A DNA stretch of 62,858 bases, taken from Schleiferiaceae bacterium. Its GTDB lineage: Bacteria; Bacteroidota; Bacteroidia; Flavobacteriales; Schleiferiaceae. Below the pieces are notes generated by a model, which saw nothing but the letters and a program-made list of their open reading frames with translations, was not told the origin of the DNA and ran no database searches. The stretch is taken from assembly GCA_030833905.1 (NCBI GenBank), contig JAURGG010000003.1:1-62858 (forward strand). Reading direction: 5' to 3'. Position 1 is the stretch's first letter; each line of letters begins with the position of its first letter. Positions 2,073 through 61,405 of the stretch are shown one piece after another. Position numbers and translations under genes: made by a program.

Positions 2073-2080
2073 CGAATGTA
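2073..2080 (-). promoter_or_regulatory. -7 box (TACATTCG) of dapF
   Basis: TACATTCG on the reverse strand, separated from the dapF ATG by four bases (CAGT). It fits TAnnTTTG with one mismatch. The spacing would put the transcript start at or next to the ATG. Confidence 0.5.
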
Positions 2081-2141
2081 GGCCGTGGAACAGTTTTTGA
2101 ATTTCGTCCTCTCGTCATTTAACCCAAAAAATTGTGCGTTT

Positions 2142-3587
2142 ATGAATGCGAAAACTTTTGCCGCCGTCACCGGACTCGCGCTCGCAGCGGGCGTGGGCGG
2201 ATCAGCTCTGTACGATGCCGTGCGCGGACCCCAATCTACAGCTTCCTCATGGTCAGCGTCCAACGGTCGACTCGTCGCCGACCGCCCAGCGTTGGTAACC
2301 TCAACCGACTTCAGCGCGGCAGCCGAACAGGCAGTCCATGCCGTGGTGCACGTCAAAACAGCCGTAGAACAGGGTTATACGTTTAATCCGTTTCAAGAAT
2401 TTTTCTTTGGGTTTGGCCAATCACCCCAGATGCAGCCGCGCATCGTTCAGGGGTCGGGTTCCGGAGTCATTATCAGCCCCGACGGCTACATCGTGACCAA
2501 TAACCACGTGATCGACAAGGCCAAAGAAGTCAAAGTCGTGCTCAACAGCAACAAAGAGTACAGCGCCAAAGTTGTGGGCGTTGACCCCACCACTGACCTC
2601 GCGGTGCTCAAAATTGAGGGCGACAACCTCCCCACCCTCGCCTTTGCCAACAGCGACGAGGTGCGCCTTGGCGAGTGGGTGCTTGCCGTGGGCAACCCCT
2701 TCAACCTCAATTCGACGGTTACGGCCGGAATCATTAGCGCGAAGGGCCGAAGCATCAACATCATTGACAACCAGTCCGCCATCGAGGCCTTCATCCAAAC
2801 TGACGCGGCCGTCAATCCGGGCAATTCGGGCGGAGCCTTGATCAACACCCAGGGCGACCTCATCGGAATCAACACCGCCATCTCTACCCGCACTGGTAGC
2901 TACGAGGGCTACAGCTTTGCGGTTCCGGCCAACATCGTGCGCAAAGTGGTCGACGACCTCACTAAGTACGGCGTGGTACAGCGCGCCTACCTCGGCGTCA
3001 ACATAGCCGACATCTCGCCCGAGCTCGCCAAAGAGCTGAGCATCAGCGAAACCCAAGGGGTGTACATTTCTGACGTGACTGAGGGCGGAGCCGCCGCCGA
3101 CGCCGGCATCAAAAAGGGCGACATCCTCATTCAGGCGGGCGGAAGAGCAGTGAAGAAAATGTCCGAACTCCTCGAGGTCATCGGAAGCCGCCGACCCGGC
3201 GACAAAATGTCTGTGGTCGTGCTGCGCGACGGCAAAGAAAAGGTCTTTAATGTGACGCTTCGCAACCGCCAAGGCAATACCGATGTACTCAAAAAAGAAG
3301 ACGTCGCATCGCTGCAGTCGCTCGGCGCATCTTTTGAGCCGTTGAGCCCATCCGACAAAGGACGATTTGGCCTGCGCTCGGGCGTCAAGGTCACCGACGC
3401 TGGCAGCGGCAAACTGGCGGAAGCTGGGGTTCCGACAGGGTTTATCCTCGTAAAGCTGAACAACAAGTTGGTCAGCAGTTCCGACGACGTCGCTCAGATT
3501 TTGGGCGAACTCGGACCGGGCGACGGAGTGCTTCTGCAGGGCTACCGCCCAAACGGCCGCGCTGAGGTCTTCGCCTTCGCGCTTTAG
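2142..3587 (+). CDS. HtrA/DegP-type periplasmic serine protease with two PDZ domains
   Basis: Envelope protein quality-control protease of the trypsin fold. The product from ATG 2142 has 481 residues, the usual size for DegP/DegQ. A hydrophobic N-terminal segment (residues 4-25) gives export or membrane anchoring. The catalytic triad is intact: His122 in NNHVIDKA, Asp152 in DPTTDLAVL, Ser229 in NPGNSGGALI. Two PDZ domains follow (about 255-345 and 385-475). An in-frame ATG upstream at 2085 would add residues that do not look like a signal peptide, so I prefer 2142. It is divergent from dapF and followed by a strong terminator, so it appears to be a single-gene unit. DegP, DegQ and DegS cannot be told apart by eye. 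Confidence 0.93.
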   Translation: MNAKTFAAVTGLALAAGVGGSALYDAVRGPQSTASSWSASNGRLVADRPALVTSTDFSAAAEQAVHAVVHVKTAVEQGYTFNPFQEFFFGFGQSPQMQPRIVQGSGSGVIISPDGYIVTNNHVIDKAKEVKVVLNSNKEYSAKVVGVDPTTDLAVLKIEGDNLPTLAFANSDEVRLGEWVLAVGNPFNLNSTVTAGIISAKGRSINIIDNQSAIEAFIQTDAAVNPGNSGGALINTQGDLIGINTAISTRTGSYEGYSFAVPANIVRKVVDDLTKYGVVQRAYLGVNIADISPELAKELSISETQGVYISDVTEGGAAADAGIKKGDILIQAGGRAVKKMSELLEVIGSRRPGDKMSVVVLRDGKEKVFNVTLRNRQGNTDVLKKEDVASLQSLGASFEPLSPSDKGRFGLRSGVKVTDAGSGKLAEAGVPTGFILVKLNNKLVSSSDDVAQILGELGPGDGVLLQGYRPNGRAEVFAFAL

Positions 3588-3607
3588 GTCGATTCGCCGT
3601 ACTCCCC

Positions 3608-3658
3608 AGCCGGTTTTGCGTGGACTAAGTGTCCAAAATACGCAAAACCGGCTTTTTT
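3608..3658 (+). terminator. Rho-independent terminator of the HtrA gene
   Basis: A 14-base arm (3608-3621) pairs perfectly with 3640-3653, and an inner GGAC/GTCC hairpin (3622-3625 with 3631-3634) caps it. A run of six T follows (3653-3658). Confidence 0.9.
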
Positions 3659-3708
3659 AATACGCTCTATTTCGGCCACTTAGCTTAGATAAATTGCACA
3701 AAATCGTC

Positions 3709-3739
3709 TTGAGCCCACCCCCTTCAGCGGCTACCTTTG
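3709..3739 (+). promoter_or_regulatory. Promoter of gap (TTG-N20-TACCTTTG)
   Basis: TTG at 3709-3711, 20 bases, then a perfect TAnnTTTG box at 3732-3739. This is the Bacteroidota -33/-7 pattern with near ideal spacing. The start codon is 31 bases further on, so this message has a leader, unlike many others here. Confidence 0.75.
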
Positions 3740-3770
3740 CGGCACAACCCAACCCAAAAACCAAACCTTG

Positions 3771-5222
3771 ATGAATCCGTCCGCGAACGCCTACCCGTCG
3801 TCCGTCCAAGCGCGCATTGCGCTCGAAAAATCCGCCACTGACCTCGTGAAAATTGCGAGCGATTTGTACTACGACCGCAACGTCAAAGTCGTACTCTTTC
3901 GCCAAGCAATTCTCGACCAGCGCGCCTCAGAAGTGCTGCACATGCACGAGCACGCAATCGTAATGGCTGAAGAACGCATCACCGTCGACGACAGCCTGGC
4001 CATGGCCCAAGCCATCTATGAATTCGGAGTTCAAAATTCATCGCTCGACCTCGGTCGACTCGCCACCGAATGGTGCCGCGAAGCCGGATCCTTCTTAACC
4101 CGCAAAGCCTTCTTGCAGCACAAGTTGAGTGGATTCACGGCGGGATCCAACCCTGCGCCCAAACCTGTAGACGTCGTGCTTTACGGATTTGGACGGATCG
4201 GACGCCTCGTAGCCCGCGAACTCATCGCCCAAGAAGGCCGCGGCGAGCAATTGCGCTTGCGCGCAATCGTCGTGCGCGGCGGAGGTGCTGAGGACCTCGA
4301 AAAGCGCGCCTCCCTCCTGCGTGTGGATTCGATTCACGGTCCATTCCCCGGAACCGTCACGGCCGATTCCGCCAAAAATGCGCTCATCGTGAACGGACGC
4401 CCTGTGCTGATGATCAACGAGGCCAAGCCCGAAGACATTGACTACACGGCCTACGGATTCGATAATGTGCTCGTCGTCGACAACACTGGAGCCTTTCGCG
4501 ACCGCGAAGCCCTGGCCCGTCACCAGCAGTCCAAGGGCTGTACGAAGGTGCTCCTGACCGCACCGGGCAAAGGAATTCCGAATGTCGTATTCGGAGTCAA
4601 CCACGACCAAGATTGGGGCGCCGAAACCATCTTCTCAGCGGCATCGTGCACCACAAACGCGATCGTTCCCGTGCTCAACGTGATGCAGGACCAGTTCGGA
4701 ATCGAGCAAGGTCACATCGAAACAATCCACGCCTACACCAACGACCAAAATTTGGTCGACAACATGCATTCGAAGTACCGCCGTGGCCGCGCCGCAGCGC
4801 TCAACATGGTCATTACCGAGACCGGAGCAGGCAGCGCAATCGACAAGGCCATCCCGGGCCTCGGAGCCAAATTCACCAGCAATGCAATCCGAGTACCGGT
4901 TCCAAACGGTTCACTGGCCATCCTAAAGTTGAATTTAAGCCGGGCAACGGACCGAAATGCGCTGAATTCCGCCCTGAAGTCCGCCGCCTACCGCGGACCA
5001 CTTGTCGAACAAATCAAGTACTCGACCAGCCCCGAGTTGGTGTCGAGCGACATCGTCGGGGACTCATGCTGTTCGATTGTCGACAGCGAAGCTACCTTGA
5101 TGCACGCCGACGGCCACAATGCCGTACTCTACGTGTGGTACGACAACGAGTACGGATACACCCGCCAGGTGATGCGCCTCGCTAAGCACATTGCGGGGGT
5201 TCGCCGCAAAACGTACTACTAG
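3771..5222 (+). CDS. gap: Glyceraldehyde-3-phosphate dehydrogenase, long form with N-terminal extension
   Basis: NAD(P)-dependent oxidation of glyceraldehyde 3-phosphate to 1,3-bisphosphoglycerate (or the reverse). The protein has 483 residues, about 140 more than ordinary GAPDH. Residues 1-130 form an extra helical domain of unknown role; the Rossmann fold starts at VVLYGFGRIGRLVA (about 136-148), the catalytic Cys293 is in SAASCTTN and the His320 partner in IHAYTNDQN. The C-terminal YDNEYGYTRQV is typical. Extended GAPDHs of this length are known from flavobacteria and some gammaproteobacteria. The ATG at 3771 is chosen over a TTG directly before it. The gene has its own leader-bearing promoter, as expected for strong expression. 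Whether it serves glycolysis or gluconeogenesis cannot be decided here. Confidence 0.95.
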   Translation: MNPSANAYPSSVQARIALEKSATDLVKIASDLYYDRNVKVVLFRQAILDQRASEVLHMHEHAIVMAEERITVDDSLAMAQAIYEFGVQNSSLDLGRLATEWCREAGSFLTRKAFLQHKLSGFTAGSNPAPKPVDVVLYGFGRIGRLVARELIAQEGRGEQLRLRAIVVRGGGAEDLEKRASLLRVDSIHGPFPGTVTADSAKNALIVNGRPVLMINEAKPEDIDYTAYGFDNVLVVDNTGAFRDREALARHQQSKGCTKVLLTAPGKGIPNVVFGVNHDQDWGAETIFSAASCTTNAIVPVLNVMQDQFGIEQGHIETIHAYTNDQNLVDNMHSKYRRGRAAALNMVITETGAGSAIDKAIPGLGAKFTSNAIRVPVPNGSLAILKLNLSRATDRNALNSALKSAAYRGPLVEQIKYSTSPELVSSDIVGDSCCSIVDSEATLMHADGHNAVLYVWYDNEYGYTRQVMRLAKHIAGVRRKTYY

Positions 5223-5409: not shown

Positions 5410-5417
5410 TACTTTTG
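5410..5417 (+). promoter_or_regulatory. -7 box (TACTTTTG) of tcdA
   Basis: Perfect TAnnTTTG match ending five bases before the ATG at 5423. No TTG is found at the expected -33 distance. Confidence 0.6.
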
Positions 5418-8342: not shown

Positions 8343-8351
8343 AATCAAGCG

Positions 8352-8359
8352 CAAAAGTA
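8352..8359 (-). promoter_or_regulatory. -7 box (TACTTTTG) of miaE
   Basis: Reverse-strand TACTTTTG, nine bases before the ATG at 8342, leaving a leader of only a few bases. Confidence 0.6.
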
Positions 8360-8373: not shown

Positions 8374-8381
8374 GATCTTCG
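8374..8381 (+). promoter_or_regulatory. -7 box (GATCTTCG) of the lytic transglycosylase
   Basis: GATCTTCG ends four bases before ATG 8386. Two mismatches to TAnnTTTG, so weaker than most, but at the modal spacing. Confidence 0.4.
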
Positions 8382-14376: not shown

Positions 14377-14407
14377 CAAAGGTACCGAACCTGCTCAGAC
14401 CGAGCAA
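14377..14407 (-). promoter_or_regulatory. Promoter of the LysM-SGNH-SGNH-MBOAT operon
   Basis: Reverse strand: TTG (14407-14405), 20 bases, then TACCTTTG (14384-14377), ending six bases before the ATG at 14370. One of the few near-start promoters here with a proper -33 TTG. A small TGCTC/GAGCA hairpin (14393-14407) overlaps the -33 part. Confidence 0.75.
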
Positions 14408-16752: not shown

Positions 16753-16782
16753 CAAATATAGCGTTACGGATTGGTTTTGCAA
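16753..16782 (-). promoter_or_regulatory. Promoter of tRNA-His
   Basis: Reverse strand: TTG (16782-16780), 19 bases, TATATTTG (16760-16753), then 13 bases to the tRNA 5' end. A good Bacteroidota -33/-7 promoter; it shows that the -7 box at normal distance works with a -33 element in this genome. Confidence 0.75.
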
Positions 16783-16800: not shown

Positions 16801-18219
16801 TCACAACATCGTCGTAGGAGCGATGTAGTCGGTCGTGGCCAATTCCGTTTGATCCTTGATGGCTGAAAATCCGCCGTTTACGTTAATCAATTTGTGAAAT
16901 CCACGCGCCTTAAGTACCGAAATAAACACCATTGAGCGATAGCCTCCTGCACAGTGTACGTAGTAGGACACCGCGGGATCTACCTTCTTCACGCTTTCGT
17001 TGATGTAGTCCAGTGGCGCATTCACCGCATTCGGCAGGTGCTGACTGGCGTATTCAGACGCCCGGCGGACGTCGAGCACCGGTGTATCGGGGTTTGCCTT
17101 GAGTAGGACCTCGAGCTCATTGGCGGTTACGGTTTCGACGTAGTCGACTTCTTTGCCGGCGGCCACCCACGACGCAAATCCGCCCTCAAGGGTGCCTAAG
17201 GTGCGGTCGTAGCCGACACGAGCCAGGCGCGTCACGGCCTCTTCTTCGCGACCGGTGTCCGTGACCAGTAAAATGGGCTGCTGAATGTCGAGCACCAGCG
17301 TACCCACCCAATTCGCAAACTGTCCGTCAATGCCAATATGTACCGAATTCGGAACATGGCCAGCCGCAAAGTCGTCGGCCTTACGGGTGTCGATGACCAG
17401 GGCATCATGCTGATTGACGATTTGCTCGAATTCGCGCGGACCGTAGGCCTTGGTTCCTTGTTCCAGGATTCCGCCAATCGACGCATAGCCCTTGATGTTC
17501 ATCAGGACGTTTTGCGGAAAGTAACTGGGCGGCGGGGTGAGGCCGTCGAGCAGCGCCGCGATGAACGTTTCGCGATCCATAGGTTGCAGGGCGTAGTTGG
17601 TTGCCTTTTGGTGGCCTAGTGTGTCGGTGGTTTCGTCGGACATGTTTTTTCCGCAGGCGGAACCCGCACCGTGCCCCGGGTACACGATCAGGTCGTCGGG
17701 CAGCGGTAGGATTTTGTTCCGAAGCGAGTCGTACATGTGCGATGCCAATTTTTCTTGGGTAAGGTCCGAAATCACGTGCTGCGCCAAGTCCGGGCGACCG
17801 ACGTCACCAATGAACAGTGTGTCTCCCGTAAAAATTGAGGCCGGTTTTCCCTGCTCGTCGTACAGCAGAAAACACGTCGATTCCATAGTGTGGCCCGGAG
17901 TGTGGATCACCTCGATTTCGACGTCGCCCACTTTGAAGCGCTGGCCGTCCTCGGCAGTGATTGCATCAAAACCGGGCTTCGCCGTGGGTCCGTACACGAT
18001 CGGGGCTCCAGTTGCCTTGGCTAAATCCAAATGGCCCGACACAAAGTCGGCGTGAAAGTGGGTTTCAAAAATGTGGGTAATCTTTACCCCGTCGGCTGCA
18101 GCGCGGTCCAAGTAGGGCTTGATTTCGCGAAGGGGGTCCACAATGGCGGCCTCGCCGTTGGACACAATGTAGTAGGCGCCGTGGGCCAAACATCCGGTGT
18201 AAATCTGTTCGAGTTTCAT
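16801..18219 (-). CDS. Metallo-beta-lactamase/double rhodanese protein, CstB- or ETHE1-like persulfide dioxygenase (copy 1)
   Basis: 472 residues: an N-terminal metallo-beta-lactamase dioxygenase domain (1-230) with THFHADFVSGH (His54, His56, Asp58, His63), HTPGHT and YPGHGAGSACGKN, then two rhodanese domains. In the first (about 265-355) the expected active-site Cys is Thr (loop TDTGRE); the second (about 370-460) keeps it in HCAGGYRS. This order, with a degenerate middle rhodanese, is that of staphylococcal CstB, which oxidises low-molecular-weight thiol persulfides to thiosulfate. It is a paralogue of the product at 49661-51178. A GTGAC-N4-GTCAC site lies about 80 bases upstream, matching one before sqr. 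It stands alone, between tRNA-His and a divergent glycosyltransferase. Confidence 0.87.
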   Translation of the reverse strand: MKLEQIYTGCLAHGAYYIVSNGEAAIVDPLREIKPYLDRAAADGVKITHIFETHFHADFVSGHLDLAKATGAPIVYGPTAKPGFDAITAEDGQRFKVGDVEIEVIHTPGHTMESTCFLLYDEQGKPASIFTGDTLFIGDVGRPDLAQHVISDLTQEKLASHMYDSLRNKILPLPDDLIVYPGHGAGSACGKNMSDETTDTLGHQKATNYALQPMDRETFIAALLDGLTPPPSYFPQNVLMNIKGYASIGGILEQGTKAYGPREFEQIVNQHDALVIDTRKADDFAAGHVPNSVHIGIDGQFANWVGTLVLDIQQPILLVTDTGREEEAVTRLARVGYDRTLGTLEGGFASWVAAGKEVDYVETVTANELEVLLKANPDTPVLDVRRASEYASQHLPNAVNAPLDYINESVKKVDPAVSYYVHCAGGYRSMVFISVLKARGFHKLINVNGGFSAIKDQTELATTDYIAPTTML

Positions 18220-18339: not shown

Positions 18340-18347
18340 GATCTTTG
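18340..18347 (+). promoter_or_regulatory. -7 box (GATCTTTG) of the glycosyltransferase
   Basis: GATCTTTG ends four bases before ATG 18352; one mismatch to TAnnTTTG. Confidence 0.5.
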
Positions 18348-20743: not shown

Positions 20744-20751
20744 TACCTTTG
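20744..20751 (+). promoter_or_regulatory. -7 box (TACCTTTG) of the ccm operon
   Basis: Perfect TAnnTTTG ending four bases (GGGC) before the ccmB ATG at 20756. No TTG at -33. Confidence 0.65.
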
Positions 20752-29300: not shown

Positions 29301-29308
29301 TGAAGGTA
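29301..29308 (-). promoter_or_regulatory. -7 box (TACCTTCA) of corA
   Basis: Reverse-strand TACCTTCA, four bases (TCGT) before the corA ATG at 29296. Two mismatches at the 3' end of TAnnTTTG. Confidence 0.45.
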
Positions 29309-29320: not shown

Positions 29321-29328
29321 TACTTTTG
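29321..29328 (+). promoter_or_regulatory. -7 box (TACTTTTG) of the GT2 gene
   Basis: Perfect TAnnTTTG, five bases (CGGCT) before ATG 29334. Only 12 bases separate it from the corA box on the other strand. Confidence 0.6.
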
Positions 29329-34708: not shown

Positions 34709-34716
34709 CAAAGATA
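34709..34716 (-). promoter_or_regulatory. -7 box (TATCTTTG) of the lipoprotein gene
   Basis: Reverse-strand perfect TAnnTTTG, six bases before ATG 34702. Confidence 0.6.
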
Positions 34717-34735: not shown

Positions 34736-34743
34736 TACCTTTG
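34736..34743 (+). promoter_or_regulatory. -7 box (TACCTTTG) of panB
   Basis: Perfect TAnnTTTG, four bases (CCCC) before ATG 34748. No TTG at -33. Confidence 0.65.
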
Positions 34744-36795: not shown

Positions 36796-36799
36796 AGGC

Positions 36800-36807
36800 C
36801 AAAAGTA
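36800..36807 (-). promoter_or_regulatory. -7 box (TACTTTTG) of the toxin-antitoxin operon
   Basis: Reverse-strand perfect TAnnTTTG, four bases (GCCT) before ATG 36795. Confidence 0.6.
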
Positions 36808-36821
36808 CAGTGAATTGTATT

Positions 36822-36844
36822 CGTACGTACGTTTTATACGTATA
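36822..36844. promoter_or_regulatory. Two palindromes, candidate operator of the toxin-antitoxin operon
   Basis: CGTACGTACG (36822-36831) and TATACGTATA (36835-36844), 13 bases centre to centre. They fall in the -25 to -50 region of the antitoxin gene, where an RHH antitoxin would bind. Confidence 0.5.
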
Positions 36845-36880
36845 CAAATGCTTCAACGAGTACCGAAGCCCGAACCTGCG

Positions 36881-36888
36881 TATCTTCG
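36881..36888 (+). promoter_or_regulatory. -7 box (TATCTTCG) of the NlpC/P60 gene
   Basis: One mismatch to TAnnTTTG; ends four bases (GGGC) before ATG 36893. Confidence 0.5.
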
Positions 36889-36892
36889 GGGC

Positions 36893-39311: not shown

Positions 39312-39319
39312 TAAAGGTA
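39312..39319 (-). promoter_or_regulatory. -7 box (TACCTTTA) of the coiled-coil lipoprotein
   Basis: Reverse strand; one mismatch; four bases (GGCC) before the GTG start at 39307. Confidence 0.5.
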
Positions 39320-39329: not shown

Positions 39330-39337
39330 TACCTTCG
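39330..39337 (+). promoter_or_regulatory. -7 box (TACCTTCG) of mnmH-selD
   Basis: One mismatch to TAnnTTTG; four bases (CTCA) before ATG 39342. Ten bases separate it from the divergent box. Confidence 0.5.
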
Positions 39338-47377: not shown

Positions 47378-47385
47378 CAAAGGTG
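47378..47385 (-). promoter_or_regulatory. -7 box (CACCTTTG) of the PLP operon
   Basis: Reverse strand; one mismatch; six bases (CATTCT) before ATG 47371. Confidence 0.5.
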
Positions 47386-47477: not shown

Positions 47478-48740
47478 ATGAACACATTTGACGTACTTAT
47501 TGTCGGCGGCGGAACCGGCGGAATCATGACCGCAGCGCAAATTCGCCGCAAACTTCCGAAGCTAAGCGTGGCCGTTTTTGAGCCCAGCGAAGACCACTGG
47601 TACCAGCCCGCCTGGACGCTTGTGGGCGCCGGGACCTTTAACATGGCCGCGACCAAGCGCAAAACCGCGACCTACATGCCCAAGGGCGCCACGTGGATCA
47701 AAGAGCGCATCGGCAGCCTTCAACCCGAACACAACCAAGTCACCACCGAAGGCGGGACCGCCTACGGATACCGCTACCTCATCCTTAGTCCTGGTTTGAT
47801 CTACGACATGAGCTTGCTCCCTGGCCTGGCTGAAGCACTTGAGACACCGTTTGTCTGCTCCAACTACATCGATCCCGAAAAGACGTGGGAAATTCTCAAG
47901 AATTTCAAAGGCGGAAACGCCGTATTCACGCAGCCCAGTACCCCCATAAAGTGCGGAGGTGCGCCGCAAAAGATCATGTACTTAGCCGAACACTACTTCA
48001 GAAAGCACGAAATTCGCGAGAAGACGAATGTTGTCTATGCGGCGCCCGGCGGCGTCATATTTGGCGTCAAAGAATTCGCCAAAACGCTCAACCACATTAT
48101 CTCAAGTCGCAACATCATTTTTAAGCCTTTCTACGCTCCAGTCCGTATCGACAGTGCGGCCAAGACCATCACCTTTCGCTACAACACCGCGATGGCTGGC
48201 AACGATTGCTTGACTCAGAAAAATGTCAAGCTTCACGAAGAAGTCAGCGGCGACACCGAAATGGTGATGCCGTACGACATGCTGCACTTGGCTCCGCCCC
48301 AGACGGCCCCGAAGTTCATCCAGCACAGCCCCTTGGCCGTAGCCGAAGGCCCAAACAAGGGTTGGCTCGAGGTAGACATCCACAAGTTGAACAGCCCCAA
48401 GTTTCCGAATGTCTTCGGAATCGGCGACAGCGCCGCGCTTCCGACCGCCAAAACCGGAGCGGCAATTCGCAAGCAGGCCCCGGTCGTGGTGGAGCAGATT
48501 CGCGCCGCCGAAGCCCACACCACCTCGCCCATCAGGTACGAAGGCTACTCGAGCTGTCCGTTGGTAACCGGCTACGGCAAAATGCTCTTAGCGGAATTCA
48601 AGTACGACAACGTGCGCGACAGCGATCCGTTAATCAGCACCTTTGTCGACACCACCAAAGAGTCATGGCTCATGTGGATCCTCAAGAAGTACGGCCTGCC
48701 CTACCTCTACTGGAACCAAATGCTTCGCGGAAAGATGTAA
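47478..48740 (+). CDS. sqr: Sulfide:quinone oxidoreductase (type II-like)
   Basis: Flavoprotein at the membrane surface that oxidises sulfide and passes electrons to quinone, giving a thiol persulfide or polysulfide. 420 residues. FAD-binding VLIVGGGTGGIMTAAQIRR (residues 6-24), the two redox Cys: Cys159 in PIKCGGAPQKIMYL and Cys360 in YSSCPLVTGYGKM, and the second FAD stretch FPNVFGIGDSAALPTAKTGAA. A third Cys of type I enzymes is not evident. This is the human SQOR-like branch. It heads sqr-tauE-persulfide dioxygenase, and a CRP/FNR-type site lies upstream. Confidence 0.95.
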   Translation: MNTFDVLIVGGGTGGIMTAAQIRRKLPKLSVAVFEPSEDHWYQPAWTLVGAGTFNMAATKRKTATYMPKGATWIKERIGSLQPEHNQVTTEGGTAYGYRYLILSPGLIYDMSLLPGLAEALETPFVCSNYIDPEKTWEILKNFKGGNAVFTQPSTPIKCGGAPQKIMYLAEHYFRKHEIREKTNVVYAAPGGVIFGVKEFAKTLNHIISSRNIIFKPFYAPVRIDSAAKTITFRYNTAMAGNDCLTQKNVKLHEEVSGDTEMVMPYDMLHLAPPQTAPKFIQHSPLAVAEGPNKGWLEVDIHKLNSPKFPNVFGIGDSAALPTAKTGAAIRKQAPVVVEQIRAAEAHTTSPIRYEGYSSCPLVTGYGKMLLAEFKYDNVRDSDPLISTFVDTTKESWLMWILKKYGLPYLYWNQMLRGKM

Positions 48741-48761
48741 ATCAAGTGAACGGTCTTCAGA

Positions 48762-48788
48762 ACTTCGGTCGCCGTGTGCGACCGAAGT
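48762..48788 (+). terminator. Strong hairpin between sqr and tauE
   Basis: Perfect 11-base arms (48762-48772 and 48778-48788) with a five-base loop. Only CACTTT follows, so termination may be partial; it could instead protect the sqr message end. Confidence 0.55.
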
Positions 48789-48813
48789 CACTTTAGACCT
48801 GTTCTAAAAAGTT

Positions 48814-48821
48814 CAATTTTG
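48814..48821 (+). promoter_or_regulatory. -7 box (CAATTTTG) of tauE
   Basis: One mismatch to TAnnTTTG; five bases (CGGTC) before ATG 48827. Together with the hairpin upstream it suggests a second promoter within the operon. Confidence 0.45.
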
Positions 48822-48826
48822 CGGTC

Positions 48827-49630
48827 ATGATCATCATTGCCTACCTCGCTTCACTACTCATTGGCCTATCGCTTGGACTTCTCGGCGGAGGCGGATCAAT
48901 TCTGACCCTGCCGGTACTTGTGTACCTCTTTGGGATTGACACAGTAGATGCTACCGCCTACTCGCTCTTTATTGTGGGGGCAACAGCACTGGCGAGTATA
49001 GTGCCCAAAGCGCGCGCTGGAGAAGTAGACTTTAAAACGGCCCTCTGGTTTGGCCTACCATCTGTTGCGGCGGTCTACTTCACCCGGTCGGTCATCATGC
49101 CCGCAATTCCGGACCCCATTTGGACCTCTGGCGATTTCGCCTTTGGCAAGGGAACCACCCTCATGCTGCTCTTTGCCGTGCTCATGGTGTGGGCAGCCCG
49201 CGGAATGATCAAGGGACGCAAACCTGCCGACGCGAATGCACCCAAAAAAGAACTCAGTCCGGCCGCCAAGGTGGGCTTAGTTCTCGCTGAAGGCGCAGGC
49301 GTCGGAATCCTCACCGGGCTCGTGGGCGCCGGCGGCGGATTTTTGATCATTCCAGCCCTCGTGCTCGTAACCGGTCTCGAAATGAAGGTAGCCGTGGGTA
49401 CTTCGCTTACCATCATCGCATTCAAATCGCTTATCGGATTCACCGGCGACCTCGACCACATGGACGCCGACTGGACGCTGCTTTTGAGCGTGACCGCAAT
49501 CGCCATCGTCGGAATGGTTGTTGGAACCATCCTGTCCAAGCGCATTGCCTCTGGGCCCCTTCAAAAGGCTTTTGGCTGGTTTGTGCTGGTTATGGGCATC
49601 TTTATTTTGACCAAAGAATTTTTATCGTAA
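48827..49630 (+). CDS. TauE/SafE family sulfite or sulfur-anion exporter
   Basis: 267-residue membrane protein with about eight helices in two related halves. The repeated Gly-rich family motif appears as GLSLGLLGGGGSILTLPVLV (residues 14-33) and GILTGLVGAGGGFLIIPALV (about 160-179). Members export sulfite, sulfoacetate or related anions, and one is part of the staphylococcal cst operon. Between sqr and a persulfide dioxygenase it should remove sulfite or thiosulfate formed from sulfide. The dioxygenase gene starts 30 bases downstream. Confidence 0.92.
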   Translation: MIIIAYLASLLIGLSLGLLGGGGSILTLPVLVYLFGIDTVDATAYSLFIVGATALASIVPKARAGEVDFKTALWFGLPSVAAVYFTRSVIMPAIPDPIWTSGDFAFGKGTTLMLLFAVLMVWAARGMIKGRKPADANAPKKELSPAAKVGLVLAEGAGVGILTGLVGAGGGFLIIPALVLVTGLEMKVAVGTSLTIIAFKSLIGFTGDLDHMDADWTLLLSVTAIAIVGMVVGTILSKRIASGPLQKAFGWFVLVMGIFILTKEFLS

Positions 49631-49660
49631 ACCTACCCTTGACGTAACTTGAAACCCACT

Positions 49661-51178
49661 ATGAACGTAGAACAGATTTACACCGGATGCTTGGCTCAAG
49701 GAGCCTACTTTATCTCGTCAAACGGCGAAGCCGTGGTCATTGACCCCTTGCGCGAAACCAAGCCCTACCTCGATCGTGCTGAGACTTTGGGGGTAAAAAT
49801 CAAGTACATCCTTGAGACCCACTTTCACGCAGATTTCGTGTCGGGCCACGTCGCACTTTCAAAAGCTACGGGTGCCCCGATTGTCTACGGTCCCAACGCC
49901 AACCCTGAATTTGAGGCCCACATCGCCACAGACAGAGAGGTATTAAATGTGGGTAACGTGACCATTGAGGTCTTGCACACCCCCGGCCACACCATGGAAT
50001 CTACATGCTACGTGCTTCGAAACGAGGCCGGCGAGCAAGTGGCCATCTTCTCGGGCGACACCCTCTTTTTGGGTGACGTAGGCCGTCCTGATCTGGCGCA
50101 AAAGGCTGCGAGCATGACCCAAGAGGATCTCGCGAGCATCCTCTTTGACTCGCTGCGCACCAAGATCATGACCCTTCCGCCGTCCATCACCGTGTACCCA
50201 GGCCACGGAGCCGGTTCAGCCTGCGGCAAAAACATGAGCAAAGAGACCGTCGGAACCCTCGCCGAGCAGCTCGAAACCAACTACGCGCTTCGCGCCGACA
50301 TGACCCGCGAAGAGTTCATCAAAGAAGTGACCGACGGACTGGGCGTGCCCCCCGCCTACTTCCCGATGAACGTGGCTATGAACAAAAAAGCGATTCCTGG
50401 TGCCGAAGAAGTTCTTGCCGAATCATCCAAAGCATTTGAGCCCGTTGCCTTCAAGGCTATGGTGGGCGAAATGGACGCACTTGTGCTCGACACGCGCAAG
50501 CCAGACGATTTTGCGGCCGGTCACGTTCCCGGATCGATCAACATCGGCATCGACGGCCAATTCGCTCCGTGGGTAGGTGCATTGATTCCGACCGACCAAA
50601 CCTTGATGATCGTGTGCGAGCCCGGTCGCGAAGACGAGGTCATTACGCGTTTGACCCGTGTGGGATACGACCGTGTACTGGGCTACCTCGAGGGCGGAAT
50701 CGCCACGTGGACCCAAGCCGGAATGGAGACCGACACCGTGACCCGGATTACCGCAACCGAACTGGCTGAGCGCCTCGCGGCCAAGCCTGAGCTGAACATC
50801 ATCGACGCACGCAAAGAGGGCGAATGGACGGCCCAAAACCTTCCGCAAGCCAAAAACATTGCGCTTGACGATCTGAATGCGAAGTTCAACGAGCTTCCTA
50901 CCGGCAGCACCATGCACATTCACTGTGCGGGCGGCTACCGTTCAATGATCTATGCTTCCATCCTCAAGAGCCGCGGAATCCACGACCTCGTGGACGTCAT
51001 CGGCGGTTTTGGTGCCATCAAGGACACTCCAGGCCTCGAAACGAGCGCCTACGTGTGCCCAAGCACGCTCAAGAAGCTTGAAGAAGAAAAGGCAGCAGCT
51101 TCTGCAGCCGCCGAGCCCGTGGTTGCGGGGGACGCACCCAAAGGCTTCATGGGCTGGCTGAAGAGCTTGCTCGGTTAA
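49661..51178 (+). CDS. Metallo-beta-lactamase/double rhodanese protein, CstB- or ETHE1-like persulfide dioxygenase (copy 2)
   Basis: 505 residues, paralogue of the product at 16801-18219. The dioxygenase domain shows THFHADFVSGH, HTPGHT and YPGHGAGSACGKNMS. The first rhodanese keeps a Cys in the active loop (VCEPGRED) where copy 1 has Thr; the second has HCAGGYRS in both. Extra here is a C-terminal tail of about 40 residues, Ala/Glu rich and ending in an amphipathic PKGFMGWLKSLLG that may touch the membrane, where SQR sits. ATG 49661 is chosen over a TTG four codons upstream because copy 1 starts at the same point. Last gene of the sulfide operon, followed by a good terminator. Confidence 0.88.
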   Translation: MNVEQIYTGCLAQGAYFISSNGEAVVIDPLRETKPYLDRAETLGVKIKYILETHFHADFVSGHVALSKATGAPIVYGPNANPEFEAHIATDREVLNVGNVTIEVLHTPGHTMESTCYVLRNEAGEQVAIFSGDTLFLGDVGRPDLAQKAASMTQEDLASILFDSLRTKIMTLPPSITVYPGHGAGSACGKNMSKETVGTLAEQLETNYALRADMTREEFIKEVTDGLGVPPAYFPMNVAMNKKAIPGAEEVLAESSKAFEPVAFKAMVGEMDALVLDTRKPDDFAAGHVPGSINIGIDGQFAPWVGALIPTDQTLMIVCEPGREDEVITRLTRVGYDRVLGYLEGGIATWTQAGMETDTVTRITATELAERLAAKPELNIIDARKEGEWTAQNLPQAKNIALDDLNAKFNELPTGSTMHIHCAGGYRSMIYASILKSRGIHDLVDVIGGFGAIKDTPGLETSAYVCPSTLKKLEEEKAAASAAAEPVVAGDAPKGFMGWLKSLLG

Positions 51179-57067: not shown

Positions 57068-57075
57068 TAGTTTTG
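57068..57075 (+). promoter_or_regulatory. -7 box (TAGTTTTG) of the DUF5916 gene
   Basis: Perfect TAnnTTTG, seven bases (CAGCTTC) before ATG 57083. Confidence 0.55.
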
Positions 57076-57082: not shown

Positions 57083-59254
57083 ATGCGCAAACTGGGCCTT
57101 CTTTTATTTATCGCGGGGTGCTCCGCAAGCTTTGGTCAGACCATCTCGGTGACCGAGCATGAAGTACCGACCAAACCCGACCGACTCGAACTCGACGGCA
57201 GCATGGCCGACGGTGAATGGACGGGAGCGCTGAGTTTGCCGCTGAGCTGGGAAATCAATCCGGGCTACAACAGCCCCGCACCTTTGGCCACCGAAGGCTA
57301 CATTTTTAAAGACGACCAGGCCCTGTACGTGGCCTTTCGCTGCAGCGTCGACCCCAGCGACTTCAGGGCCAACCTCAACCGCCGCGACGCCGCGTGGGAC
57401 GACGACTTTGTCGGAATCGCCCTCGACGTCTACGGCGACACGCGCAACATGGTGTTCTTGGGATCGAATGCCTACGGCGTGCAGCTCGACGTGCGCAAGA
57501 ACGACCCGGCTAACCACATGGACGACCAAATGGACGTGTCGTACGACGTCGAATTTGAAGCCCAAGCCGCCCGCAACGGCGACTACTACACGGTGGAGCT
57601 CCGGATCCCCTTCAACACGCTTCAGTTCGGCAGCAGCAACCGCCAGCGCTGGAAGTTCACCTTCTTTCGCCAAACCTACTTCAAAGGCGTGCAGGTCAAC
57701 ACCCAGGCCAACCCCCAGTACCGCGAAATCTTTTGTGCCGACTGCCAGTTCGCGCACTCCCTCATTTTGGACGGAATTAAGCCCAAACTGCGCCGCCAGA
57801 TCATTCCCTATGCGTTTGCAAGTGCCTTGGGCCAGCCGGGCGAGGCACCCAAGCCCGGAGCTAAAGTTGGCGGATCTGCCTTTGTCGGCCTTAACGCCGC
57901 CACATCGGTAGAAGTCGCCCTCAATCCGGACTTCAGCAACGTCGAGGCCGACGTGGCCCAGGTCGCCGTGAACTCGTCGTTTGCGCTTTTTTACCCCGAA
58001 CGGCGCCCCTTCTTCATTGAAGGCAGCGACCAGTTTGCTACGCGCCAGACCTATGTCTACACGCGGAGCATTGCCAATCCCTTGGGCTTGACCAAGTTCA
58101 CCAACCAAGGCCAGAAGTACCGCAGCTACGTGCTCACGGGCTACGACGCGGCGTCGCCGTACTTGGTTCCGGGCCGGAATTTCTCGGCCTACGGAACCTC
58201 GGGCGCCAACTGGTCCACCATCGCGCGGATTCAGCGCCGCCTGCCCTACTCGTCGGGCATCGGGTTGCTGGCCACCCAGCGCACCTACTTTGAGGGCGGA
58301 AGCGGATCCCTTGCCGCCGCCGACGTCAACCTTCGGATCAGCGACGCCCTGCGTTTTAAGGCAGAATTGGCCTTCAGCGACACCCGCGAAGCCGTGGCCG
58401 ATTGGATCACGGGCGGCGAAGACTTCAAAGGCCGCACCGCGGCCCTGGACGGCGAGCGCTACCGCGGAATGGCCATGTACGCAGGCCTCATCCGCCAAAG
58501 CAAGCACTGGACCCTGCGGGCGGACGTAATGGGCCAAAGCCCGACGTTCCGCGCTGAAATGGGCTTTGAGCCTCAAAACGATTGGATGCGCTACGAGCTG
58601 GGCGGCAGCTACAACGCCTTCCCCAATAAAAAGGTGGTTAAAACCTGGGGGTTGTACAACGAGGCCACTCAGTTTCGCTACTTTGACGGAGGCGTGCGCC
58701 AAACGCACCACCTGGCGTGGGGCTGGATCCAATGGGGCGGCAACCTGCGCACAAGTTTTTTCAACCGTTTCAAACTTGAAGAATCGTTTAAAGGTCAGCG
58801 CTTTACCAACTTCGGGCGGCGCGGAATCACCACCAACTGGCGACCCAGCCAAAGCTTTACGCTGGGCGTAGAATGGAACTTTGGCCAGTCCATCGCCTAC
58901 AACGAGGCAGACCTTCGCCTCGGCCGCGACCAAAACGTTTCGGTTACCGCGCAATTCCAATTTGCCGGCCAACTCCGCTGGAACCACATGCTGACCCACG
59001 CCACCATGCACGAAGTGGACGGTTCGGCGCTCATTTACCGAGGCTACATCTACCGCAGCGGACTTGAATGGTCGATGACCCGAGCGACGGAATTGCGCCT
59101 GGTGGCCCAATGGGACGATTTCTCGTCGCAGCTGCTGCTTCAGCCGGTCGTCACCTACCGACCCAACGCATTCACCCTTGTGTATGCGGGCGGACAATCG
59201 GTGGGCGGAACCTGGCAAGGATTCGTGAAAGGCCAGTGGGCGCTGGGCTCGTAG
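57083..59254 (+). CDS. DUF5916 domain protein with CBM9-like N-terminal domain
   Basis: 723 residues. Signal peptide (1-19, LLLFIAGCSASFG; the Cys may also be a lipobox), then a CBM9/DOMON-like beta domain (about 25-215) with DGEWTGALSLPLSWEINPGY, LYVAFRCS and RIPFNTLQF. The rest (about 220-723) is beta-rich and contains NPDFSNVEADVAQVAVN and FYPERRPFFIEGSDQF, diagnostic of DUF5916, and looks like an outer-membrane barrel. Its function is unknown; a carbohydrate link is suggested by the first domain. It ends in a short heptamer repeat. Confidence 0.88.
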   Translation: MRKLGLLLFIAGCSASFGQTISVTEHEVPTKPDRLELDGSMADGEWTGALSLPLSWEINPGYNSPAPLATEGYIFKDDQALYVAFRCSVDPSDFRANLNRRDAAWDDDFVGIALDVYGDTRNMVFLGSNAYGVQLDVRKNDPANHMDDQMDVSYDVEFEAQAARNGDYYTVELRIPFNTLQFGSSNRQRWKFTFFRQTYFKGVQVNTQANPQYREIFCADCQFAHSLILDGIKPKLRRQIIPYAFASALGQPGEAPKPGAKVGGSAFVGLNAATSVEVALNPDFSNVEADVAQVAVNSSFALFYPERRPFFIEGSDQFATRQTYVYTRSIANPLGLTKFTNQGQKYRSYVLTGYDAASPYLVPGRNFSAYGTSGANWSTIARIQRRLPYSSGIGLLATQRTYFEGGSGSLAAADVNLRISDALRFKAELAFSDTREAVADWITGGEDFKGRTAALDGERYRGMAMYAGLIRQSKHWTLRADVMGQSPTFRAEMGFEPQNDWMRYELGGSYNAFPNKKVVKTWGLYNEATQFRYFDGGVRQTHHLAWGWIQWGGNLRTSFFNRFKLEESFKGQRFTNFGRRGITTNWRPSQSFTLGVEWNFGQSIAYNEADLRLGRDQNVSVTAQFQFAGQLRWNHMLTHATMHEVDGSALIYRGYIYRSGLEWSMTRATELRLVAQWDDFSSQLLLQPVVTYRPNAFTLVYAGGQSVGGTWQGFVKGQWALGS

Positions 59255-59255
59255 C

Positions 59256-59283
59256 GAGTTACTCGTTGGGAGTTACTGGTTTT
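59256..59283. repeat. Short heptamer array
   Basis: GAGTTAC-TCGTTGG-GAGTTAC-TGGTTTT; on the reverse strand it reads as ACCAGTA-ACTCCCA-ACGAGTA-ACTC, the same word type as the arrays at 5335 and 31471. Directly after the DUF5916 stop. Confidence 0.55.
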
Positions 59284-59285
59284 AC

Positions 59286-59297
59286 ATGTTTAAACAT
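59286..59297. promoter_or_regulatory. Perfect 12-base palindrome before the DsbA/FrnE gene
   Basis: ATGTTTAAACAT, centred about 25 bases before the predicted transcript start, where a repressor would block RNA polymerase. Confidence 0.45.
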
Positions 59298-59304
59298 TTA
59301 CCCA

Positions 59305-59312
59305 TACCTTTA
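59305..59312 (+). promoter_or_regulatory. -7 box (TACCTTTA) of the DsbA/FrnE gene
   Basis: One mismatch; four bases (GCGT) before ATG 59317. Confidence 0.55.
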
Positions 59313-59316
59313 GCGT

Positions 59317-59967
59317 ATGGAAGTAGATGTATTTAGCGACGTGGTTTGCCCCTTTTGCTACATTGGCAAACGGCATTTGGAATCCGCCCTACGGGAACTC
59401 GGCGTCGCGGATGCACAAATTCGGTTCCGCAGTTTTGAACTGGATCCCCATGTGGCGGATTCCGACCTGGGCACGTCGAGCATAGCCAGTTTGGCGTCCA
59501 AGAAAGGGATGAGCCTCGCCGACGCCGAACGCATGACCCAGGCCGTGGCCTACCGGGCCAGTCAGGTCGGAATTCCGATGGATTTTAGCCAAACTAAAGT
59601 GCTGCGCACGCGCGACGCCCACCGCCTGCTGCAGTGGGCGCGCACGCATTCGCTTGAAGGCGCCGCTGCACTCAAAGAGGAACTGATGCGCGACTACTTC
59701 TGCGAGGGGATAAACTTGAATGAGTCTGAGGCCCTTTTGGCCGCCGCCGGTCGCGCGGGACTTCCTGCCGACGAAGCCCGTGCGGTTCTGGCCGACCCGA
59801 GCGCGTTCGCTGCTGCGGTCGAAGCCGACATCTCCTATGCCCAAAAGCTCAACGTACGCGGGGTTCCGTTTTTTGTGTTCAACCAACGCATCGGATTGAG
59901 CGGTGCGCAGTCGGTTGAAACGTTTGTCGCGGCCATGAAGGAATCCCTGCAAGCGCCCACAGCGTGA
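59317..59967 (+). CDS. DsbA family oxidoreductase, FrnE-like
   Basis: 216-residue cytosolic thioredoxin-fold protein without signal peptide. The redox motif CPFC (Cys11, Cys14) sits at the start (DVVCPFCYIGKRHLE), a helical insertion fills the middle (about 60-165), and the cis-Pro loop is NVRGVPFFVFNQR (about 183-195). FrnE-like proteins act as disulfide isomerases or HCCA isomerase relatives and are often linked to oxidative stress. It overlaps the next gene (dioxygenase-like) as GTGA, so the two form one unit. Confidence 0.92.
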   Translation: MEVDVFSDVVCPFCYIGKRHLESALRELGVADAQIRFRSFELDPHVADSDLGTSSIASLASKKGMSLADAERMTQAVAYRASQVGIPMDFSQTKVLRTRDAHRLLQWARTHSLEGAAALKEELMRDYFCEGINLNESEALLAAAGRAGLPADEARAVLADPSAFAAAVEADISYAQKLNVRGVPFFVFNQRIGLSGAQSVETFVAAMKESLQAPTA

Positions 59968-60785
59968 CCGCACAAGAGCTCGACGGCTGGTTAGGCGGCG
60001 TGCGCACCCAGCGCATGCCCTTGCTGTTTTTGGGCCACGGTAGCCCCATGAATGCCATCGAGGACAATCATTTTACGCGCGAATTCCGCAAGTACGGCCA
60101 AGCCCTACCCAAGCCGCGGGCGATTTTGTGCATTTCAGCCCACTGGGAAACTCGAGGAACATTGTTCACGGCGATGCAACAGCCCCGCACCATCCACGAT
60201 TTTGGAGGGTTTCCTGAACGCCTATACAAAGTTCAGTACCCAGCACCAGGATTGCCTGAACTTGCGGCCACCGGAGCCGCGCTAACCCAAGGCGATATCG
60301 ACACCGAACACTGGGGACTGGATCATGGAGCATGGAGTGTGCTTATTCACCTCTACCCCAACGCAGACGTACCCGTGGTACAGATGAGTTTGGACCGCGC
60401 ACGCACGCCGAGCGAGCACGTGGCACTCGCAAAGCAGCTTTCAGACCTGCGCTACCGCGGAGTGCTGATCGTAGGCAGCGGAAACATGGTACACAACCTC
60501 GGCCGCGTGGCGTGGAACCGCCTCAACGAAGTTGGCTACGCCTACGACTGGGCCGCCGAGGCCCGTGAGCTGCTGATGGACCGGATTCGAGACGGTCGCC
60601 TCGACGAGCTCGCCAAGTACAGCACCTTGGGCTCGGCGGTCCAGCAAGCGATTCCAACCCCCGAGCACTACCTGCCCCTGCTGTACACCCTCGCGCTGAG
60701 GGATTCCGACGAAGACCTGGACGTGTTCAACGACTATGCGCTGGCGGGGTCCCTAACGATGACGTCCGTCGCAATGGGCCTTTGA
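59964..60785 (+). CDS. ygiD: Class III extradiol ring-cleavage dioxygenase, YgiD/4,5-DOPA dioxygenase family
   Basis: 273 residues from the GTG at 59964 overlapping the previous stop. Zinc or iron ligands expected of the LigB-like fold are visible: His25 in LFLGHGSPMNA, His in ISAHWETRG (about 54), HDFGGFP, and HWGLDHGAWSVL (about 112-123). SGNMVHNL is another family mark. Members cleave catechols such as DOPA in vitro; the natural substrate in bacteria is unclear. Partner of the FrnE-like protein. Confidence 0.93.
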   Translation: MTAQELDGWLGGVRTQRMPLLFLGHGSPMNAIEDNHFTREFRKYGQALPKPRAILCISAHWETRGTLFTAMQQPRTIHDFGGFPERLYKVQYPAPGLPELAATGAALTQGDIDTEHWGLDHGAWSVLIHLYPNADVPVVQMSLDRARTPSEHVALAKQLSDLRYRGVLIVGSGNMVHNLGRVAWNRLNEVGYAYDWAAEARELLMDRIRDGRLDELAKYSTLGSAVQQAIPTPEHYLPLLYTLALRDSDEDLDVFNDYALAGSLTMTSVAMGL

Positions 60786-60790
60786 AGCGC

Positions 60791-60804
60791 GTGACCCATG
60801 TCAC
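60791..60804. promoter_or_regulatory. CRP/FNR-type palindrome before the outer-membrane protein gene
   Basis: GTGAC-CCAT-GTCAC, perfect arms. A GTGATTTG sequence at 60827-60834 could be the -7 box; it would put the site centre 41.5 bases before the start, as for sqr. AATCACC/GGTGATT words repeat between 60808 and 60850. Confidence 0.55.
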
Positions 60805-60854
60805 CTTAATCACCTTGGGCATTTCGGTGATTTGCATACCTAAATCACCGCGTT

Positions 60855-61391
60855 ATGAAGTATTTACCGCTGCTCTTCTGGCTCCTTACTCGGGCGGCCG
60901 TGGGCCAAACTCAGGATAACTCTAGCACCCCGACTGCTGACCCGCACCACCACCGGCACCCCTTTCGGGTATCGCTCTTATTAGGACACGGTGTGGTCCC
61001 CGAAATTGGGGGCTCTGAAATCCTCTTTGTGCCTACCTACAGCCTTGACGTGGACTACCACCTAAGCGATCGATGGTCTCTTGGGATTCGCAACGACATC
61101 GAATTTGAGCACTACATCGTGTACACCAACAACCATGAATCCATGGCCTTCAAGACGCCGTTGGTAACTACGGCGGACGTGTTTTACCGACTCACCCACA
61201 ATTTAATGGTCGGCATGGGTCCGGGACTTGAACTTGAAGCCGGACACCTCAAACCAGTCCTACGGATGGGCTTTGAGGCTGAAGTCCCGATGAACGACCG
61301 CTGGGAGTGGACGCCCAATATTTACTACTACCAGCGCGCCGACAACAAGCACGTCTTCAACCTAGCCGTCGGCGTCGCCCACTACCTCTAG
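60855..61391 (+). CDS. Small outer-membrane beta-barrel protein, unknown function
   Basis: 178 residues. Signal peptide (MKYLPLLFWLLTRAAVGQ), then a short His-rich segment (DPHHHRHPF, about 31-38) and an eight-strand-like barrel with alternating residues (SLLLGHGVVPEIGG, YSLDVDYHLSDRWSLGIRN, NLMVGMGPGLELEAG, FNLAVGVAHYL). No family recognised. The His cluster near the mature N-terminus could bind metal. A CRP/FNR-type site and possible class II promoter lie upstream, linking it to the sulfide genes at 16801 and 47478. Confidence 0.8.
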   Translation: MKYLPLLFWLLTRAAVGQTQDNSSTPTADPHHHRHPFRVSLLLGHGVVPEIGGSEILFVPTYSLDVDYHLSDRWSLGIRNDIEFEHYIVYTNNHESMAFKTPLVTTADVFYRLTHNLMVGMGPGLELEAGHLKPVLRMGFEAEVPMNDRWEWTPNIYYYQRADNKHVFNLAVGVAHYL

Positions 61392-61397
61392 GGCCCG

Positions 61398-61405
61398 TAC
61401 TTTTG
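61398..61405 (+). promoter_or_regulatory. -7 box (TACTTTTG) of the AHSA1-family gene
   Basis: Perfect TAnnTTTG, four bases (GGGC) before ATG 61410. Confidence 0.6.

Follow-up and report, generated by a model that had tools for sequence, protein, structure and literature searches.

Why do so many genes in a single stretch of a small Bacteroidota genome carry the same short box directly in front of their start codons, and where would their transcripts then begin? The stretch, hereafter the window, comprises 62,858 nt of a Schleiferiaceae bacterium and is contig C127 (JAURGG010000003.1) of a 1.64-Mb, 94%-complete assembly in 193 contigs (GCA_030833905.1; 58% GC). A sequence-only reading had pointed out a TAnnTTTG-like box at no fewer than twenty of its start codons, had taken it for the −7 element of Bacteroidota promoters, and had predicted transcripts that begin at or beside the start codon. 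The best explanation of these boxes, and in our judgment a very probable one, is that they are ordinary sigma-A −7 elements placed directly before the start codon, which would yield leaderless mRNAs.

The box and its distance from the start codon

All twenty boxes are present where they had been reported. Inspected by eye, ten are exact TANNTTTG and ten carry one or two mismatches (e.g., GATCTTCG at 8374 and CACCTTTG at 47385). The gap to the start codon, described as mostly exactly four, is four in 12 of the 20, five in 3, six in 3, seven in 1, and nine in 1; the last belongs to MiaE, for which the gap falls from 9 to 3 if the TTG at 8348 is taken as the start. The gaps had also been called GC-rich, and spacers are 70% GC (236 bases) versus 52% in non-coding DNA.

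For a count over many genes, the window was joined with 20 more stretches of the same genome (G000; 419,849 bp together), and a gene finder relying solely on coding score and the type of start codon, with no motif, called 339 genes in this 420-kb sample. The finder missed some window genes, including the one starting at 14370 on the minus strand, and picked shorter versions of those at 34748 and 59317 on the plus strand (59509 in place of 59317). Among the 56 window genes with a called start, 15 have a box with a score of at least 6 at a gap of 3–7, the start being left unmoved, where about 0.75 would be expected by chance (such scores have a genomic frequency of 0.0027 per position). One of the 15 is doubtful, namely 21415, which has a GTG start within the upstream gene and may be a coding-sequence coincidence.

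The same peak appears with each way of counting. Among 320 starts preceded by 60 nt of sequence, TANNTTTG occurs in exact form 12, 8, and 6 times at gaps 4, 5, and 6, with a second, smaller hump around gap 20–22, and four control motifs occur 0–1 times each at gap 3–7. When expectation maximization was run de novo on these 320 upstream regions, with the motif free to lie anywhere in the 60 nt, the top motif was TAnnTTTG; its expected counts peak at gap 4 (31) and fall to 13 at gap 5 and 10 at gap 6. A matrix scan with unmoved starts found a box at gap 3–7 in 63 of 328 genes, versus 8 with the reversed and 4 with the complemented matrix and 1–7 with eight of ten column-shuffled matrices; when starts were allowed to move, near boxes rose to 84 (reversed control 17, complemented 12). 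In the whole genome, TANNTTTG lies exactly 4 nt before an ATG 66 times, compared with 11 for the reversed pattern. Over all gaps of 0–30 before ATG the counts are 355 and 161, which leaves approximately 9.6 per gap outside gap 4; among the matches listed (100 of the 355), 17 are at gap 4 and gaps 8–30 have a mean of 2.5. The gap-4 excess recurs in every one of the 21 further congeneric genomes searched (42–75 vs 6–28 in the control). The positional peak that the sequence-only reading had anticipated thus exists, at gap 4–6, above the reversed, the complemented, and most of the shuffled controls.

Start codons, transcript starts, and sigma-A

In the mechanism that we propose, RNA polymerase would melt the DNA at TAnnTTTG and initiate 4–6 nt downstream, on the A of the start codon or no more than about 3 nt from it. 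A start at or beside this A is suggested by the spacing and supported by the bases that could serve as alternative starts at gaps 5–6, of which 24 of 29 are pyrimidines, usually leaving the A as the first purine. Leaderless mRNAs are translated via recognition of a 5′-terminal AUG, and the transcripts predicted here would presumably follow this route. Two modes would then operate side by side in the genome, one leaderless and one with short A-rich leaders, in which the box often stands about 20 nt upstream. We infer these 5′ ends and this mode of translation, as well as the mutual exclusion of polymerases that is considered below for back-to-back boxes. In Flavobacterium johnsoniae the revised consensus is TAHHTTTG, and transcription often starts 4 or 5 nt past the box (PMC6847099), so the mRNAs of genes with a near-start box would be expected to begin at the start codon or at most about 3 nt away from it; together with the fixed gap, this published spacing speaks for the transcript starts that the sequence-only reading had predicted.

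The first alternative to be weighed is that the start codons are wrong, in which case the ATG beside the box would be unused, translation would begin further downstream, and the mRNAs would be normal leadered ones. The choice of starts by coding score is imprecise, and 21 of the 84 near boxes needed a moved start; the other 63 matches, however, rest on starts chosen without the motif. Counted from the start beside the box, the Pfam domain opens at residue 2 in the DsbA-like protein (59317) and at residue 5 in both DapF and a family 2 glycosyltransferase (GT2; 29334), so translation of these three cannot start much further downstream, and the glycosyltransferase alignment runs from residue 1 in 20 genomes. 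On the other side of the start codon, 41 of 49 strict cases have no in-frame ATG back to the preceding stop (GTG and TTG not being counted). We therefore consider misplaced starts an improbable explanation of the boxes.

About as improbable is the possibility that near boxes are secondary promoters and that the main transcripts start further upstream. Tandem genes do carry such boxes, even where they are closely packed (13/108), as this alternative would have it. Near boxes are nevertheless commoner where a promoter is needed: they stand before 35 of 96 divergent genes, compared with these 13 of 108 closely packed tandem genes; the counts are 14/41 for tandem genes lying 10–49 nt apart, 12/68 for tandem genes at least 50 nt apart, and 2/15 for genes at the ends of stretches. 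In very short divergent spacers, moreover, an upstream promoter would fall inside the opposite gene.

As for the protein that reads the box, the sigma-A assignment is strongly supported by comparison of the sequences. An alignment anchored on the box gives roughly (C)(C/G)TAYCTTTGC for 75 near-start promoters and almost the same consensus for 47 leadered ones; one difference is a C at box position 7 in 4% of leadered versus 21% of near-start boxes. At positions 3–4, G is avoided in both the de novo motif and the aligned boxes. Of 67 tRNA matches found in G000 and G012, 53 were examined for their upstream regions; a box is present in 42 of these, and in 30 of the 42 it lies 9–17 nt before the mature 5′ end. 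Since tRNA genes are untranslated, the box is a promoter signal rather than a ribosome-binding site. The de novo motif, the match to the published consensus, and the tRNA genes thus bear out its identification as the Bacteroidota −7 element. Promoters of Bacteroidota sigma-A (sigma-ABfr), with TTG at −33 and TAnnTTTG at −7, have the same −7 element and the same avoidance of G at positions 3–4, and the −33 signal is weak in F. johnsoniae mRNA promoters, much as there is little or none in the mRNA promoters here (PMC6847099).

It is the −33 TTG that raised the suspicion of a different promoter class, which an alternative sigma factor would recognize. As the sequence-only reading had noticed, most near-start boxes lack a TTG, which stands at a spacing of 18–20 from the box in only 5 of 75. 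Its further impression that TTG goes with leadered boxes holds for tRNA promoters (16/42) and fails for leadered mRNA promoters (3/47): tRNA promoters differ from near-start (p = 7e-5) and from leadered ones (p = 5e-4), and the two mRNA classes do not differ (p = 1.0). The TTG, which belongs to the classical sigma-A consensus and was not treated as required, is therefore lacking as a rule in both classes, and its absence is normal for protein genes in this genome rather than a mark of leaderless ones; a loss of −33 specific to leaderless genes was accordingly rejected. With leadered mRNA boxes equally devoid of TTG and nearly identical at −7, and with no consensus distinct from sigma-A found among the 75 near-start boxes when compared with the 47 leadered ones, a separate class appears very unlikely. 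Just as implausible is the idea that the box is a ribosome-binding site within a longer mRNA, for which a fixed distance from the start codon would be expected, given the box before 42 of 53 tRNA genes, the match to the published sigma-A consensus including its avoidance of G (PMC6847099), and the gene rpsU, where a strong Shine–Dalgarno sequence sits downstream of a separate box.

The ribosome itself seems, from the sequences at hand, to be of the usual Bacteroidota type. The protein bS21 is present in 21 of the 22 genomes of the genus; 16S matches, considered with a view to a possible loss of the anti-Shine–Dalgarno sequence as the cause of the leaderless mode, occur in 3 of the 22 and all end before the 3′ end. 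The bS21 gene, rpsU (locus L011, around 18589 on the minus strand of contig C116 in the own genome; also L271), has a sigma-A box, a short leader, and the strong Shine–Dalgarno sequence AGGAGGTG in G000 and G021, and among the three genomes compared (G000, G021, and G016) the G016 leader lacks it. For the FCB group, the literature describes ribosome-binding sites that are AT-rich and non-canonical (PMC9581028), and leaderless mRNA has been reported in some Flavobacteriia without anti-Shine–Dalgarno sequence (PMC10783764).

Conservation, lineages, and divergent pairs

The arrangement is conserved within the genus. The orthologue of the glycosyltransferase at 29334 could be read with its 5′ end in 20 of the 22 genomes. 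By eye, 11 of the 20 have a box at gap 5, 8 have it at gap 6, and one at gap 8; 14 of these boxes are exact TAnnTTTG and the other six have one mismatch, with protein identity going down to 71%. Some near-start boxes, among them those of the glycosyltransferase in G014, G009, and G021, read TAnnTTG plus another base and partly resemble TAnnTTGY, the alternative-sigma motif of Flavobacterium psychrophilum (PMC9723704).

PanB was found in 20 of the 22 genomes: 8 have its box at gap 4, and in the other 12 the box lies 16–19 nt upstream, before an A-rich leader. Facing this box, all 20 carry TATCTTT(G/A) at gap 4–6 from a divergent start (both by eye). In a wider set of named Bacteroidota genomes (the best 80 of 561 matches, 68–74% identity, 5 of the 80 being dropped for want of a start), the box lies 13–40 nt upstream in 43 of the 75 genes with a start and near the start in 5, one of which is also leadered, so that a leader is the common state there. 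More broadly, genes called leaderless that have an orthologue in the sampled stretches keep the near box in 7/10 cases in G012 and 4/4 in G171 of the sister genus. Taken together, this is 11/14 versus 6/50 gene–genome pairs for genes not called leaderless (p = 4e-6; some genes are counted in both genomes).

In gene-level samples scanned with one relaxed motif, which are small outside the own genome, near boxes at starts (control in brackets) number 46/331 (4) in the own genome, 16/144 (0) in G012, 7/95 (0) in the 36%-GC congener G016, and 8/77 (0) in the sister-genus genome G171. Other genomes of the family have 0/57 (2) in G022, 1/27 (0) in G145, and 5/58 (0) in G261, and further genomes 4/69 (0) in G034, 3/55 (2) in G026, 2/50 (0) in G435, and 3/68 (1) in G526. 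Pooled, the genus and sister genus have 77/647 versus 18/384 in the others (p = 8e-5, the grouping having been chosen after the data were seen). The predicted leaderless mode is thus enriched in the source genus and its sister genus; it is not confined to them, since G261 of the same family has 5/58. In the own genome, near boxes make up about half (0.49, control-corrected) of the recognizable boxes within 40 nt of starts, a share that leaves out genes without a recognizable box.

Counts of the gap-4 pattern in entire genomes, 393 from the order and 394 from the phylum, are patchy: pattern and control are 88/16, 82/11, and 85/23 in the sister genus, and 137/42 in G034, 128/33 in G435, and 56/8 in G526, which belong to other families. 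Such raw ratios, considered as a measure of leaderless genes, are misleading alone, as those of G526 and G435 are high and their gene-level near boxes only 3/68 and 2/50. The one genus also spans roughly 36% GC (G016) to 57% GC (G000 samples), and G016 keeps near-start boxes with none of its 11 divergent pairs less than 60 bp apart.

Both the promoter and the phenomenon are known, and it is the extent that is unexpected for the phylum. Of the leaders predicted in F. johnsoniae, 87% are over 10 nt and 13% are not, whereas about half of the boxes within 40 nt sit 3–7 nt from the start here (PMC6847099). Experimentally mapped leaders are shorter than 10 nt in 3.7% of cases in Bacteroides thetaiotaomicron (PMC7366714), and 5.5% of 890 are leaderless in F. 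psychrophilum (PMC9723704). These occasional leaderless mRNAs come from the same phylum and, by consensus, the same promoter type; the near-start share here is far larger, although it is predicted from sequence and the denominators differ. In a 2011 survey, 1 of the 37 Bacteroidetes/Chlorobi genomes had leaderless genes (2.4% of its genes), and many overlooked ones were judged unlikely; the survey, by its own account, sought only Pribnow-like promoters and would thus miss the TAnnTTTG box (PMC3160421). The same paper describes the leaderless genes of Actinobacteria and Deinococcus–Thermus, which likewise have a −10 box at a fixed short distance from the start codon and make up a sizeable share of genes, unlike ours with another promoter sequence and in another phylum. 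For the AT-rich bias at −20 to −10 in Bacteroidetes genes without Shine–Dalgarno sequence, leaderless mRNAs have been named as one possible reason, with reports of a high leaderless fraction cited; binding of S1 is also offered, and the bias cannot simply be attributed to leaderless signals (PMC5397173). A specific box with a fixed 4-base gap, as seen here, is not given in the part of that paper used here. Leaderless mRNA in Bacteroidetes is consequently not fully novel, since both that study and PMC10783764 raise or mention it. In the titles and abstract openings of the open-licence literature, we found no report of a leaderless-rich Bacteroidota lineage or of the paired divergent promoters described next.

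Among 48 divergent pairs, nine are predicted to be doubly leaderless, with start-to-start distances of 34, 34, 35, 37, 37, 46, 67, 78, and 97 bp. Their median of 37 bp compares with 98 bp where one gene is leaderless and 98.5 bp where none is (p = 0.003). Independently of start calls, exact boxes stand back to back, 2–18 bp apart, 21 times in the own genome versus once for the reversed pattern. Elsewhere the counts are 11–22 versus 0–16 across the genus, 9 versus 9 in G022, and 62 versus 67 in G026, and they also exceed the control in genomes of other families (36 vs 10 in G031, 21 vs 5 in G032). A spacer of 28 nt separates panB from its neighbour in the sister-genus genome G171 and contains two exact boxes. 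Divergent starts are less than 60 bp apart in 14/49 cases in G000, 6/23 in G012, 4/10 in G171, 0/11 in G016, and 1/57 in seven other genomes. The leaderless mode may therefore let some divergent genes share about 28–46 bp, with two boxes pointing apart. Symmetric bidirectional bacterial promoters offer a parallel, as two divergent starts arise there from one short segment, with a common −10 region in the known cases; here, the two boxes are separate and point apart, and either start codon falls close to the −33 region of the opposite promoter.

Several observations weigh against the leaderless reading and the paired promoters built on it. Two of the ten column-shuffled matrices gave 16 and 20 matches against the 63 of the true one. 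The start codons are predicted, and 27 of 76 leaderless calls are moved starts or weaker boxes. Spacers are 60% pyrimidine overall, which makes the pyrimidine bias at alternative start bases modest. In G012 the near box is missing for three of the ten leaderless genes, and the 11 gene–genome pairs that retain it include the doubtful 21415. As to the divergent pairs, some doubly leaderless starts were moved toward the box, biasing their distance downwards, and all six pairs at 34–46 bp have at least one degenerate box. Only one of six exact back-to-back pairs in the sample (L018, 9074–9092) has a start codon 3–7 nt away on both sides; because the other five have one on one side only, most such pairs combine one leaderless gene with a promoter that is leadered or of another sort.

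With these points in mind, we put forward a broader proposal, which we regard as possible rather than probable when all its parts are taken jointly. In the branch of small-genome Bacteroidota sampled, leaderless mRNA would have become one of the main modes of expression, to an extent that no earlier mapping in the phylum has shown, with bS21 and a strong Shine–Dalgarno sequence at its gene being kept. Some divergent pairs would form modules of about 28–46 bp, made up of two outward-facing boxes without −33 elements and served by one polymerase at a time and so coupling both genes, and genes would switch between leaderless and A-rich-leader modes within a genus.

Boxes and neighbours in the window, and what they mean

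The individual boxes of the window fall before genes of varied function. On the minus strand, TACATTCG (2073..2080) stands at gap 4 from the DapF start at 2068, with a near box in the G012 orthologue. The ThiF-family gene starting at 5423 follows TACTTTTG (5410..5417, plus strand) at gap 5, and its G012 orthologue has a box at gap 7. The same sequence, TACTTTTG (8352..8359, minus strand), precedes MiaE at gap 3 (TTG 8348) or gap 9 (ATG 8342), with gap 5 in the G012 orthologue; on the plus strand, a degenerate box, GATCTTCG (8374..8381), lies at gap 4 from the start of an SLT-domain protein at 8386. Next come TACCTTTG (14377..14384, minus strand; gap 6) before the LysM protein gene at 14370 that the gene finder missed, GATCTTTG (18340..18347, plus strand; gap 4) before a glycosyltransferase starting at 18352, and TACCTTTG (20744..20751, plus strand; gap 4) before a CcmB-like protein starting at 20756.

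The glycosyltransferase at 29334 that is conserved across the genus has TACTTTTG (29321..29328, plus strand) at gap 5; its neighbour CorA, starting at 29296, has the degenerate TACCTTCA (29301..29308, minus strand) at gap 4, and in the G171 orthologue the gap-4 box is weak (score 6.4). PanB, starting at 34748, follows TACCTTTG (34736..34743, plus strand) at gap 4, and the divergent gene beside it, with no Pfam match and a start at 34702, follows TATCTTTG (34709..34716, minus strand) at gap 6. A ribbon-helix-helix protein starting at 36795 has TACTTTTG (36800..36807, minus strand) and the divergent NlpC/P60 protein starting at 36893 has TATCTTCG (36881..36888, plus strand), both at gap 4; between these two genes (36796–36892), repeated ACGTA-type sequences could be an operator of the small regulator. 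Back to back stand TACCTTTA (39312..39319, minus strand), 4 nt from a GTG at 39307, a start shifted upstream by 54 nt from the one favoured by coding score, in a gene with no Pfam match, and TACCTTCG (39330..39337, plus strand), 4 nt from the start of a rhodanese-domain protein at 39342.

The start at 47371, moved 33 nt upstream of the coding-score choice, lies at gap 6 from CACCTTTG (47378..47385, minus strand). The remaining boxes are on the plus strand: CAATTTTG (48814..48821; gap 5) before TauE at 48827, TAGTTTTG (57068..57075; gap 7) before a DUF5916 protein at 57083, TACCTTTA (59305..59312; gap 4) before the DsbA-like protein at 59317 with its Pfam domain from residue 2, and TACTTTTG (61398..61405; gap 4) before an AHSA1 protein at 61410. 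For comparison, a leadered promoter with TACCTTTG (3732..3739, plus strand) lies 31 nt before the GAPDH start at 3771, and the tRNA-His promoter TATATTTG (16753..16782, minus strand) lies 14 nt before the mature 5′ end, with a TTG 19 nt further upstream.

Other features of the window deserve mention in their own right. A 704-residue open frame with a TTG start (57104–59218, minus strand) is antisense to nearly all of the 723-residue DUF5916 gene. Two metallo-hydrolase/rhodanese-like genes (within 16801–18219 and 47478–51178) may belong to sulfur metabolism, the second adjoining a sulfide:quinone reductase-like gene and TauE (NCBIfam matches below curated cut-offs). Upstream of dnaK (33466, minus strand), an inverted repeat CCAAATT...AATTTGG at about 80–95 nt is a possible heat-shock control site, and no −7 box with a score of at least 8 occurs within 100 nt upstream. 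Codon adaptation was also considered as a sign that leaderless genes form a low-expression class: the median is 0.733 versus 0.764 for leadered genes (p = 0.009, uncorrected), too weak for such a claim, and leaderless genes do not differ from other genes (p = 0.53 and 0.55, with a reference set of only 9 genes).

Overall, this is a lineage in which about half of the recognizable mRNA boxes predict leaderless transcripts, compared with the small minority mapped or predicted elsewhere in the phylum (3.7–13%). In these genomes, the box-to-start rule could be used by gene finders for setting start codons. PanB, which within a single genus apparently has no leader in 8 of 20 genomes and has one in the other 12, offers a natural comparison for the study of translation initiation in Bacteroidota, and the lineage as a whole may serve as a test case for how the ribosomes of a small-genome bacterium find their starting point.

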